Source: an uncultured Campylobacterales bacterium
GTDB taxonomy: Bacteria; Campylobacterota; Campylobacteria; Campylobacterales; Arcobacteraceae
Assembly: GCA_947494995.1 (NCBI GenBank)
Contig: CANLWY010000001.1
Coordinates: 806,001 to 870,000 of the forward strand
Direction of reading: 5' to 3'
DNA: 64,000 nucleotides
Part shown: piece by piece, positions 3 through 14,724 of the stretch
How positions within the stretch are numbered: the stretch's first letter is position 1
Layout of the letters: each line of letters opens with the position of its first letter
Notes under the pieces: model-generated
What the model was told of the DNA's origin: nothing
The model's database searches: none
The model's input: the letters and a program-made list of their open reading frames with translations, nothing else
Made by a program: the position numbers and the translations under genes

Positions 3-302
3 GATGCAGAGTTTGACTTTTCATTTGTAATAAAAGAGAGTTTAGATAAACCCTTTATTTATCTTGGAATGATTGCCTTTTCTATTTTGATTTTCATGGC
101 AATAACTTCAACAAAAAAACTTTTTAGAAAGTATAATAAGTATCATAAGTTAGTCTATCTCTCTTTACTCTTAATAACAATACATTTTATAATGGCTCAA
201 AAATCTTTAACAATTTTACAATTTTCTTACATTGCTATTATTTTATTTATAGCATATTGTAAACTTTTACAGCAAATCATACAAAAAAACAGAGTAAATT
301 AA
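3..302 (+). CDS. msrQ: C-terminal fragment of MsrQ/YedZ-like heme-binding membrane subunit (5' end outside window)
   Basis: Open frame from base 3 reads DAEFDFSFVIKESLDKPFIYLGMIAFSILIFMAITSTKKLFRKYNKYHKLVYLSLLLITIHFIM, resembling the MsrQ pattern (KRPY..G..A...L..LAITS....R.....WK.LH.LVYL). The track ORF at 69 is only an internal ATG. Confidence 0.7.
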   Translation, partial: DAEFDFSFVIKESLDKPFIYLGMIAFSILIFMAITSTKKLFRKYNKYHKLVYLSLLLITIHFIMAQKSLTILQFSYIAIILFIAYCKLLQQIIQKNRVN

Positions 303-477
303 CTTTCTGTTAACCTTTTGTTAGATTATTATTAATACTCATCTATTATAATTTTCATATGGATTAAGAAGACTTGCGAAACCTTCTTAAAATGAATTTA
401 AAAAAATGCGAATTTTTAAGTTTTCAATTTGTTTCCTTGTGTATAAAAAGAGCTCCTTTTTAAGGAGCTTTTTTTTT
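299..477 (+). ncRNA. Candidate small RNA copy 1 (promoter, RNA and terminator); RNA body about 360-477
   Basis: TATAAT at 347-352; stem TTAAGAAG/CTTCTTAA (364-371/383-390); terminator AGCTCC-TTTTTAA-GGAGCT plus T-run ending ~477. Near-identical to the second copy at 507-685. Confidence 0.6.
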
Positions 478-506
478 GGTACTAAAAATTATCTTTTTTA
501 ATTAAA

Positions 507-685
507 TTAACTTTCTGTTAACTTTTCATTACTTTATGATTAATTCTCATCTATTATAATTTTCATATGGATTAAGAAGAACCGCGAAACCTTCTTAAAA
601 GAATTTAAAAAAATGCGAATTTTTAAGTTTTCCAATTTGTTTCCTTGTGTATAAAAAGAGCTCCTCATAACGGAGCTTTTTTTTT
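507..685 (+). ncRNA. Candidate small RNA copy 2 (tandem paralog); RNA body about 568-685
   Basis: TATAAT at 555-560; stem TTAAGAAG/CTTCTTAA (572-579/591-598); terminator GAGCTCC-TCATAAC-GGAGCTT plus T9. Same start motif TTAACTTTCTGTTAAC as copy 1. Confidence 0.6.
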
Positions 686-10494: not shown

Positions 10495-12711
10495 TTATCT
10501 ACTTGCTCCATGAAGTTTTATCTCTTTTATAATTTCTAGGTCTTCATCATCTTTTACATTTTCTGCAAATACTTTAATATTTAGAAGGTGTGCTAGTTCA
10601 TTGATTGATTCAATAAACTCTTTTTTAGATTTTTCCTCTTTTATACTTGAAGTATAATCTCTTGCAAGTCTAATATAGTCAAGATTGAACTCTTTTAGAT
10701 TATCTGTAGGGATAAATCTACTTTCAAATCGTTTTACAATGATTTTAGCTCCTGAATTGTGAACATAGTCACAAAAGCTTTTAAATATTGCAATATCTTT
10801 TGCAACAGAATAAGCTGTAATTGAAAATACCAATTGAGATGATATCTTTTTATTTTTTGTAATCTCTTTTTGAAGCCAATTAATAAACTCATTGTTTGAA
10901 ATAGAATCAAGTGATAAGTTTATACTTACATCATATTTAATATTGTTTATTTGTATATGACTCATTACTTTATTGATTACTGCCTTATCAAAATCAACAA
11001 TTTTTTCATACTTTTCTGCAATTGATACAAACGAACCTATTGGTATAGGGTTATTATCTTTATCTTTTGCATTAGTAAATGCCTCTTGCATTATAATATC
11101 ATTATTGTCATCATCTAAAGTATATGCATCATTGATAAAATCTATTTCAAAACTCGAATTGTCAATAATCTCAGTAATTAGATCTCTCCATACTGTCATA
11201 TCTCTTGATAAGTCACTTTTACTTCTAATAAAATATTCATTTGGTCCAATAATTTTTGCTTTTTCATAGGCTTCATTAGCAGCTTGTAGCATTTCATCTA
11301 TTGTTCCTAATTCATTAAATGGTGTTGCTCCAATATGTGCAACTTCTTTTAGATTAAACTCTTCACTTAAATTTTCAAAAGAGTATTTTAACCTTGAACT
11401 AATATCTTTTGCACAGTTATGATCACACTCTTTTGCTATAAGTACAAACTCCGAACCAAAAAATCTATAAGCATTGATATCTAAACTCTTATCCGTACAT
11501 AAACTTTTTAGAATTTGAGCAAATTTAATGATATATTTATCAACTTCATCATCAGTATGAGTTTTTGCATAGGCTGCCAAATCATCAATTTTGATACAAA
11601 AAACATATCCATGCTCTTTTTTTATAAACATCTGTTTCATATCAGTTTCTAGGGTTTGTTTTAAGCTTAATCCTGTTAATTCATCTTCTGATAGTTTTTT
11701 TGAAAGATTTTCAAGATTGTTAGTTAGTTTATTTATCATTGCTTCAATTTTTCTTGACATATCATTCATGGCAATTGATACATTTTTTATCTCAGTTGTC
11801 CAAGGAAGAGGGTCAATCACTCCAAATTTAGCCTTTGAAATATCTTTTGCTAGAGATTCTATATTTTTAAGTGGTTTTAAAAGTATTTGAACGAAAGCAA
11901 AAAGAATTAACATCGATATCATAAAAGCAATAATTGCATATACTATTGAGTTTCGTGCTTGTTCAAAAAGTTTTGCATAAGCCTCTCCAGGGTTAGGACT
12001 TACATATATTATTGCTGTAGTGTTCCATCCATTTGAAATTTCACTTAGTTTTTCATCTAAATTTATTGGAATAAGTTGTATAAACCATTTTGGAACATAC
12101 TCAAACTTGATATCTCTACTTTCACTTAATAGAACTTTATTTATAGTAAGGTTAGCAAAAGTATCAATAGTTTTATTATCTAAACTTGCAGTAAAGTTAA
12201 AAGTGATATTACCTCCATCTTTATATACAGTTGATGGTACATATCTATATTGGATATCTGATATTTCTTCTTCAAAACCTAAGTCTTCATCATCATTTTC
12301 AAGTTTTAAAAGTTGTTCATTCATAGATGCATCTGATTCTATTTTTTCAACAAAACCAAATTTTGGATCAACAGAAATATTGTTGATTTTCCAGTTTGCA
12401 TCATCTAAGTCAGTTGAAGCTCCTATTAATTCGTTTTGACTTATTGTAAAATCAGCATCTTCTAGCCTTATCTCTTTATAAAAACCACTGTTTGAAATAG
12501 CTTTGATAATTGACTCTATTTCAGGGTCTTGTTTATCTTTTATAAGTGGTCTTAAGCTTAATCCTAAAGATGTAGCTGTATCTTGAGCTTTAGTAGCAGA
12601 TTCAAGCTCTAAATACTCTTTCATATTGTTCACACTAATTAAAAAATTTCCACTAAATATTATAAAAAATATAAAAGCTATAATTAAATAGAGTTGTTTT
12701 GATAAAGACAT
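10495..12711 (-). CDS. lapD: LapD-like inner-membrane c-di-GMP receptor with degenerate GGDEF and EAL domains
   Basis: N-terminal TM plus LapD/MoxY-type periplasmic region, HAMP, RFFGSEF in place of GGDEF, MQEAFTN in place of EAL, AENV in place of AEGVE; adjacent to LapG-type protease. Confidence 0.85.
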   Translation of the reverse strand: MSLSKQLYLIIAFIFFIIFSGNFLISVNNMKEYLELESATKAQDTATSLGLSLRPLIKDKQDPEIESIIKAISNSGFYKEIRLEDADFTISQNELIGASTDLDDANWKINNISVDPKFGFVEKIESDASMNEQLLKLENDDEDLGFEEEISDIQYRYVPSTVYKDGGNITFNFTASLDNKTIDTFANLTINKVLLSESRDIKFEYVPKWFIQLIPINLDEKLSEISNGWNTTAIIYVSPNPGEAYAKLFEQARNSIVYAIIAFMISMLILFAFVQILLKPLKNIESLAKDISKAKFGVIDPLPWTTEIKNVSIAMNDMSRKIEAMINKLTNNLENLSKKLSEDELTGLSLKQTLETDMKQMFIKKEHGYVFCIKIDDLAAYAKTHTDDEVDKYIIKFAQILKSLCTDKSLDINAYRFFGSEFVLIAKECDHNCAKDISSRLKYSFENLSEEFNLKEVAHIGATPFNELGTIDEMLQAANEAYEKAKIIGPNEYFIRSKSDLSRDMTVWRDLITEIIDNSSFEIDFINDAYTLDDDNNDIIMQEAFTNAKDKDNNPIPIGSFVSIAEKYEKIVDFDKAVINKVMSHIQINNIKYDVSINLSLDSISNNEFINWLQKEITKNKKISSQLVFSITAYSVAKDIAIFKSFCDYVHNSGAKIIVKRFESRFIPTDNLKEFNLDYIRLARDYTSSIKEEKSKKEFIESINELAHLLNIKVFAENVKDDEDLEIIKEIKLHGASR

Positions 12712-13398: not shown

Positions 13399-14724
13399 TT
13401 ATTTTAGAGTATTTAAAATTGTATCTTCTTGAAGTTTTTCACTATCATATTTTACAATTATTATATTTTCAGTGTCATTTATATACCACTCATCAATTTC
13501 ATTAATTGTATCTAATTTATGTGTATGTTTTGTTAATTCTTCTGTTAATGGAATATATGATAATTTTTTCTTTGCTGGATTTGGCATAGTAATAATTAAA
13601 ATAATCCATAAAATACAAACAATTGCAATTACAATTACAAGTGTTGAAAGACTTGCTTTTTCAAAAAACATACCACCTAAAACACCACCTAAAAAAGTAC
13701 CAAAATATCCAAATGAGTTGAAAATACCTAATACAAGTCCTCTTTGGTGAACTTTTGCAAATTTAGTAGCTAATGATTGCATGATTGGCTCATGAACATT
13801 AAAACCAATAAAGAAAATTACAACACCAATTACAAACATAGTTGTACCGGTACTAAATCCTATAATTAAATAAGAAACAGCAAATAAAACAATTCCAATT
13901 AAAAGAATTTCTTTAAACTTTCCTTTTTTCTCAGCTATAATTGCAGCTGGTGCCATAGCTAAAAATCCAAAAATCATTGCTGGAAGATAAACTTTCCATA
14001 GTTCACTCATTTGCCATTCAAAGCTTCTAATTAAAACCATAGGAATAATCATAAATGCAAATGTCATTAAACCTTTTTGTAAAAAGTTAGTGATATTCAT
14101 TTTAATTAAATTTGCATTTCCTAAAACTTGTCCAAGTTGTGCTTTCCCATTATAGGTATGAGTTATTTTTGGTGGATTTGGAACAGCTTTTACTAAAACT
14201 ACAATAGAACCAAGTGCTATTAATGCTGTCAAATAGAATAGTGTTTCAACACCAGCAAATGCACCAATTGTAGGCCCTAAAATCATTGAAGCGGCAAAAG
14301 ACATCCCAATGAACATTCCCATTGTAGCCATTGCTTTTGGTCTTTGCTCTTCTTTTACTAAATCACTAATCATAGCCGTAACAACTGCACCAATTGCTCC
14401 TGCACCTTGTAAGAATCTACCTACTAAAAGAGTTAAAATATCAGTTGCAATAGCACAAAAAATAGAACCTATAGCAAAAAGTAAAAGACCCGTAATAATC
14501 GTCCCTTTACGTCCTAACTTATCACTCATAACTCCAAAAGGAACTTGAAAAAGCATTTGAGTTAAAGCATAACCACCAACAACAATACCAACTAAAGTAG
14601 TTGTTGCTCCATGTAAATTTATAGCATATACAGAAAGTACTGGTAAAACTAAAAAAAGTCCAAAAAATCTTAATGCAATAATTGAACTAAGAGGTAAAAT
14701 AGATTTAATCATATATAATCCCAA
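13399..14724 (-). CDS. MFS transporter, YajR-like, with C-terminal ferredoxin-fold-like extension
   Basis: 12-TM MFS pattern (GVMSDKLGRKGTI, GRFLQGAGAIGA) plus ~60-aa soluble C-terminus (NDTENIIIVKYDSEKLQEDTI). Confidence 0.8.
   Translation of the reverse strand: MGLYMIKSILPLSSIIALRFFGLFLVLPVLSVYAINLHGATTTLVGIVVGGYALTQMLFQVPFGVMSDKLGRKGTIITGLLLFAIGSIFCAIATDILTLLVGRFLQGAGAIGAVVTAMISDLVKEEQRPKAMATMGMFIGMSFAASMILGPTIGAFAGVETLFYLTALIALGSIVVLVKAVPNPPKITHTYNGKAQLGQVLGNANLIKMNITNFLQKGLMTFAFMIIPMVLIRSFEWQMSELWKVYLPAMIFGFLAMAPAAIIAEKKGKFKEILLIGIVLFAVSYLIIGFSTGTTMFVIGVVIFFIGFNVHEPIMQSLATKFAKVHQRGLVLGIFNSFGYFGTFLGGVLGGMFFEKASLSTLVIVIAIVCILWIILIITMPNPAKKKLSYIPLTEELTKHTHKLDTINEIDEWYINDTENIIIVKYDSEKLQEDTILNTLK

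Follow-up and report, generated by a model that had tools for sequence, protein, structure and literature searches.

Tandem candidate small-RNA genes in Arcobacteraceae share a promoter element with the htrA operon and are likely directed at outer-membrane protein mRNAs

What are the two similar intergenic segments that stand side by side near the start of the window (the whole 64,000-nucleotide stretch of Arcobacteraceae DNA analysed here), what switches them on, and what might they act upon? The two units (299-480 and 507-685) are direct tandem copies of ~180 bp each, 91% identical, and are the sole full-length copies in the host genome. On their 5' side lies a reading frame that ends at 302 and has weak matches to MsrQ/ferric-reductase-type membrane proteins; on their 3' side, a gene for a UvrD-like helicase starts at 751. 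Each unit runs from a promoter through hairpin 1, an AU-rich hairpin 2 and an unpaired tail to a terminator, as follows (evidence after the semicolon):

299..336, plus strand: unit 1 regulator box with four direct repeats of the TTAAC type every 11 bp (299, 310, 321, 332); sequence, 57.7 bits with the matrix, conservation of the box at further sRNA genes and at htrA
347..352, plus strand: unit 1 -10 element TATAAT, separated by 10 bp from the fourth repeat; sequence, spacing fixed in homologues
360..477, plus strand: unit 1 predicted sRNA, ~118 nt, putative start ~8 nt after the -10 element; fold z = -2.96, homologues
364..390, plus strand: unit 1 hairpin 1, loop with GCGAA; fold, homologue stems that differ yet pair
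394..423, plus strand: unit 1 hairpin 2, AU-rich, loop with GCGAA; fold, homologues
428..442, plus strand: unit 1 unpaired tail TTTGTTTCCTTGTGT, candidate seed for pairing with Shine-Dalgarno regions; near-invariant in homologues, complementary to outer-membrane protein starts
445..477, plus strand: unit 1 Rho-independent terminator; fold, stem changes on both sides that keep pairing
507..544, plus strand: unit 2 regulator box, four repeats; 59.0 bits with the matrix
555..560, plus strand: unit 2 -10 element TATAAT; sequence, box-matrix search
568..685, plus strand: unit 2 predicted sRNA, ~118 nt; fold z = -2.77, 91% identity to unit 1
572..598, plus strand: unit 2 hairpin 1; fold, stem comparison
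601..631, plus strand: unit 2 hairpin 2; fold
636..650, plus strand: unit 2 tail TTTGTTTCCTTGTGT, proposed seed; identical to unit 1
653..685, plus strand: unit 2 Rho-independent terminator; fold, sequence

Both units thus have the features of genes for trans-encoded sRNAs, i.e., an intergenic location, a promoter of their own, a short structured predicted transcript and an intrinsic terminator. Small overlapping ORFs (23-42 aa) are present in them, and indels are frequent among unit homologues. A preliminary description of the locus had listed tandem units with a common motif (TTAACTTTCTGTTAAC, at 299-314 and 507-522), TATAAT, stems, loops and terminators, all of which were found in place, and its account of the AU-rich GCGAA hairpin and of the terminator loops agrees with the sequence. 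It had also taken the units to be genes for structured RNAs; indeed, the predicted folds of units 1 and 2 are more stable than those of dinucleotide shuffles (z = -2.96 and -2.77), of which 1/200 and 0/200, respectively, were as good. The hairpin-1 stem TTAAGAAG/CTTCTTAA (364-371/383-390 in unit 1, 572-579/591-598 in unit 2) encloses the loop ACTTGCGAAAC in unit 1 and AACCGCGAAAC in unit 2. A covariance model made from a MAFFT alignment recovered only the terminator and not hairpins 1 and 2, because hairpin 1 was misaligned; the model was left unused, and the hairpin-1 stems were therefore compared sequence by sequence among homologues. The stems found were TTAAGAAG/CTTCTTAA, ATTAGGAAG/CTTTCTAAT, ATAGGTAA/TTACTTAT, AATAAGCAAG/CTTACTTATT and ATTAGG/CCTAAT, all of which pair despite their divergence, and the terminator stem likewise retains pairing through changes on both sides. 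Such compensatory changes are what a conserved structure in an sRNA gene entails.

Homologues of the units occur in 32 of 105 Arcobacteraceae genomes, among them all 16 from the genus of the host, and a single genome has as many as five matches (E<=1e-4, a cut-off at which a few matches, e.g., in G024, are partial or due to chance). Halarcobacter, Arcobacter and Aliarcobacter are among the genera named in the records of carriers. Some matches comprise the promoter alone, downstream of which lie further sRNA genes with a GCGAA hairpin and often a second GCGAA, UCUCCU and a terminator, and in several genera the UvrD-like helicase gene is preceded by an sRNA with a different hairpin (GUUGACGCAGCGAC) and the same UAUGUUUCCUUGUGU tail. 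With many homologues, compensatory stem changes and a conserved promoter and terminator, the proposal of tandem sibling sRNA genes with conserved stems has held up; the four-repeat box with its 11-bp period, the conserved tail TTTGTTTCCTTGTGT and a third host unit with the same promoter are additions to it. This shorter third member (G000:C3:180886, minus strand; locus L092 near 6940, minus strand) lies between a LOG/lysine-decarboxylase-like gene and a gene for a 135-aa protein, and consists of a GCGAA-loop hairpin, a second, unpaired GCGAA, UCUCCU and a terminator (fold z = -3.97). Rfam gave no match at the gathering score for the tandem units in the window and no family match at six related loci, the one hit being a tmRNA elsewhere in L247. 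A published search of Arcobacter sp. L for structured RNAs left several intergenic regions that are confined to Arcobacter without a name (PMC6429828), and a relative of the tandem locus may therefore have been seen there but left undescribed.

Several side observations concern this family. In G068, a related RNA precedes the same 135-aa gene that adjoins the third host copy. At L416 and L417 (G082 and G083), box-like sites are followed by a short segment made up of UCUCCUUGUU and a terminator, and this segment precedes a 114-115-aa gene that resembles the 135-aa gene of the third host locus. Genus g15 (G080-G083; L029, L030, L034) also has tandem sRNA pairs, in which the first loop carries ACGGA or GCGGA, not GCGAA.

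The promoter offers the clearest indication of what might control these genes. The four TTAAC direct repeats recur every 11 bp, and their distance to TATAAT is constant at 10 bp; direct repeats that are spaced by a single turn of the helix and take over the place of the -35 box are typical of OmpR-family regulators. Exact box matches in the host genome number only three, all at sRNA genes, and a weaker box (14.2 bits), at the same distance from TATAAT, precedes the host htrA, which is followed by genes for an OmpR-family response regulator and a HAMP/HisKA histidine kinase. The htrA-cprRS locus of C. jejuni has the gene order htrA, regulator, kinase. CprRS affects htrA and other envelope genes there (PMC4518328). 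The htrA box is present in 16/16 genomes of the genus and in several other genera, with scores of up to 44.9 bits; the matrix search found none at htrA in four genomes of two genera (G033, G034, G042 and G043). Across 400 Campylobacterales genomes, there were 46 box matches versus 0 for a reversed control, and the majority of those examined precede sRNA-like genes or htrA, with a few, maybe by chance, before other genes. Two genomes of a second family have the box directly before htrA. In a third family (L425, in G114), htrA lies ~225 nt downstream of the box, with an sRNA-like segment (UACACAAACUCCUCCUAAAAUUG) between them; therefore, the htrA leader itself may yield an RNA. A box-like site before a host TonB-receptor gene (C2:66718) fell below the matrix threshold and was set aside.

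The sRNA units thus share a promoter element with the htrA-regulator-kinase operon, as members of a CprR regulon would. Because the box co-occurs at the sRNA genes and at this operon, we infer that the CprR orthologue acts at the four repeats and would activate both its own operon and the sRNAs. Our literature search found no paper linking an sRNA with CprRS.

As to what the RNAs might repress, the tail TTTGTTTCCTTGTGT is their most conserved unpaired stretch; it is identical in units 1 and 2, almost invariant within the genus and genus g15, and also present in the RNAs that g2, g5 and g19 carry at the helicase locus. Its conserved part UUUGUUUCCUUGUGU is complementary to the ribosome-binding sites of OmpA, Opr porin, TonB-receptor and MlaA genes in the genus. 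The best start-codon complement found in the host belongs to an OmpA-family gene, where the match spans both the Shine-Dalgarno sequence and the start codon. By duplex energy with the tail, host ompA ranks 1st of 69 starts; it is first or second in each of the 16 genus genomes (against background sets of mostly 1-15 starts), and its mean fractional rank of 0.29 is blunted by the very small gene sets. Exact tail complements are not in overall excess genome-wide (49 matches vs. 54 for the reversed sequence), and the target argument therefore rests on start-codon context. In that context, ACACAAGGA-N4-9-ATG gave 88 matches vs. 27 reversed, and 10 of the 19 ACACAAGGA gene families with a real start, as counted by eye, encode outer-membrane proteins, i.e., OmpA, Opr porin, a DUF3373 protein (read as porin-like), MlaA and six TonB receptors. 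A control motif of matched composition that shares the AAGGA core yielded 73 vs. 68 matches, with ~4 real starts and no outer-membrane protein. The outer-membrane excess has p below 1e-8 against an assumed 2-5% share and p = 0.08 against the few starts of the control motif. The starts of prs, nuoL, HU and sucD match ACACAAGGA as well, for which reason the motif may partly mark highly expressed genes.

The RNAs therefore carry a conserved candidate seed complementary to outer-membrane mRNA starts, as expected of outer-membrane-repressing sRNAs, and mRNAs for outer-membrane proteins are their likely target class; we grade this no higher because of the comparison with the control motif, the families counted by eye and the highly expressed genes among the matches. 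The preliminary description had proposed siblings whose differing loops set overlapping targets. Overlap is plausible, but the loops do not appear to be the determinants, as they differ only slightly, on either side of a GCGAA that hardly varies, while the shared UUUGUUUCCUUGUGU tail matches ribosome-binding sites; the shared tail, rather than the loops, is likely to be the seed. The tandem copies more likely provide dosage or redundancy than RNAs with separate specificities. As a side observation, prs (ribose-phosphate pyrophosphokinase; L099 1574-2506, minus strand, and orthologues) adjoins ompA, and its start, ACACAAGGAAAA-N-ATG, is conserved in seven genus genomes with a tail match about equal to that of ompA.

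Outside Arcobacteraceae, the four-repeat promoter precedes an unrelated sRNA-like element at nine loci of Sulfurovum and Campylobacterales MAGs (L212, L183, L234, L247, L198, L190, L253, L230 and L211). This element, nearly invariant over ~70 nt across the nine loci (fold z = -5.15 at one locus), has a long stem (AACAUUGUUCACGAG...CUCGUGNNCAAUGUU) around three anti-Shine-Dalgarno stretches (ACUCCUUU, ACUCCCUUG and ACCUCCUUUG). It had no Rfam match at the four loci scanned, and a seed test returned a mixed list, with TorF as a putative porin and a weak match to an outer-membrane barrel next to infA- and amtB-like genes, which supports outer-membrane targets only weakly; the targets of this element are less clear. 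The occurrence of the same promoter before an unrelated RNA supports a conserved promoter with exchangeable RNAs. It is quite possible, and proposed here tentatively, that much of Campylobacterota shares an envelope-stress regulon in which a fixed promoter module (four-repeat box, CprR-type regulator and htrA) is combined with replaceable RNA bodies, i.e., that translation-repressing sRNAs were recruited repeatedly and independently. The RNA bodies would then be the GCGAA-hairpin/anti-Shine-Dalgarno type in Arcobacteraceae and the long-stem type with three anti-Shine-Dalgarno stretches in Sulfurovum.

Other explanations have to be weighed against these data. The RNAs might be controlled by CprR while their tail serves as a general anti-Shine-Dalgarno sequence that lowers many abundant mRNAs, whether for outer-membrane proteins or for prs, nuoL, HU and sucD. 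The ACACAAGGA starts of non-envelope genes and the three anti-Shine-Dalgarno stretches of the Sulfurovum RNA behind the same promoter would fit such a role; however, outer-membrane proteins account for approximately half of the matched gene families, compared with none for the control motif, and the conserved tail extends past the Shine-Dalgarno complement (UUUG...UGUGU), which makes this explanation unlikely. Alternatively, the GCGAA hairpins might be the functional part and the tail secondary, with the RNAs sequestering an RNA-binding protein in the way that CsrA is held by RNAs of the CsrB type. GCGAA recurs in hairpins of differing sequence and even where unpaired, and g15 members carry ACGGA in the same loop, which would fit such a role. 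Nonetheless, each RNA has only two such sites, GCGAA differs from the CsrA motif ANGGA, and the tail is at least equally conserved, several g15 and g2-type members having kept it with GCGAA lost or altered; we thus regard sequestration as quite improbable.

A different OmpR-type regulon, e.g., that of phosphate starvation (PhoB), is a further candidate, as the B. subtilis PhoP box resembles four TTAAC repeats at 11 bp, and both the period and the number of repeats fit a PhoP/PhoB-type box. However, the stretches that hold the host pst-phoU-regulator operon contain no box match, and the TTAAC box sits at htrA instead. The pst promoters have a repeat of another kind, TGTAACC-N4-TGTAACC, which is why control of the sRNAs by PhoB was rejected, and we consider this family of explanations very improbable. 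The host pst leaders themselves (L094 near 10960-11060 and 13930-14130, minus strand) have GTAACC-type repeats, with TGTAACC-N4-TGTAACC before pstC, which likely represent a PhoB box distinct from the sRNA box. Finally, the tandem arrangement and 91% identity could reflect a recent accidental duplication without function, which the preliminary description had already disfavoured. This is scarcely credible, as homologues occur across genera, often at the same site before the UvrD-like helicase gene, and the compensatory changes and almost invariant tail contradict it.

Known systems offer analogues rather than relatives. AbcR1/AbcR2, NmsRA/NmsRB and the cuckoo RNAs CcsR1-4 are sibling sRNAs encoded next to one another that carry anti-Shine-Dalgarno stretches and act on overlapping targets. 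In these respects they resemble the tandem units, but they have other regulators and target classes, and a sequence relation is not expected. The enterobacterial envelope-stress sRNAs are the sigma-E-dependent MicA, RybB and MicL. MicA has been reviewed (PMC4618604). Like the proposed role of the units, these sRNAs act alongside a DegP/HtrA-type protease and pair with outer-membrane mRNA starts, including that of ompA; however, they depend on an alternative sigma factor and Hfq, whereas the tandem units have an apparent two-component activator, and there is no relation in sequence or structure. ChvR of Caulobacter crescentus (PMC6237742) is closer in control, being an Hfq-independent sRNA under the two-component system ChvI-ChvG that represses a TonB-dependent receptor by pairing near its start. 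It is nonetheless a single gene with one known main target, pairs via stem-loops rather than one tail, and is unrelated in sequence. RepG, CJnc170 and CJnc230 (PMC8295292, PMC11187230) are sRNAs from the same phylum, Campylobacterota, but their targets are tlpB/LPS or flagellar genes and their promoters are not of the htrA-cprRS type; no resemblance in sequence was noticed.

Taken as a whole, the comparative evidence makes it reasonably probable that both units encode CprR-activated, trans-acting envelope-stress sRNAs that repress outer-membrane protein translation as functional analogues of MicA/RybB and ChvR. Envelope stress would activate CprS-CprR, and the CprR orthologue would bind the four-repeat box, switching on its own htrA operon and the sRNAs, so that ~118-nt RNAs would be transcribed from both units, the tandem copies raising their dose. 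The single-stranded UUUGUUUCCUUGUGU tail would pair with the Shine-Dalgarno region and start of OmpA, Opr porin, TonB-receptor and MlaA mRNAs and block ribosome loading; outer-membrane protein synthesis would fall, while HtrA would handle misfolded proteins. The role of the GCGAA hairpins is probably to stabilise the RNA or to bind a protein; since GCGAA recurs even where unpaired, it may be a protein site or a second seed.

If this is true, the envelope-stress response of Arcobacteraceae includes an RNA branch like the one that MicA and RybB form under sigma-E, and by promoter homology other Campylobacterota would share it. CprR, an essential yet poorly understood regulator, would be indicated as the activator. 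Moreover, if the promoter stays fixed while the RNA bodies behind it are exchanged, one could look for such RNAs via their promoter and not their own sequence.
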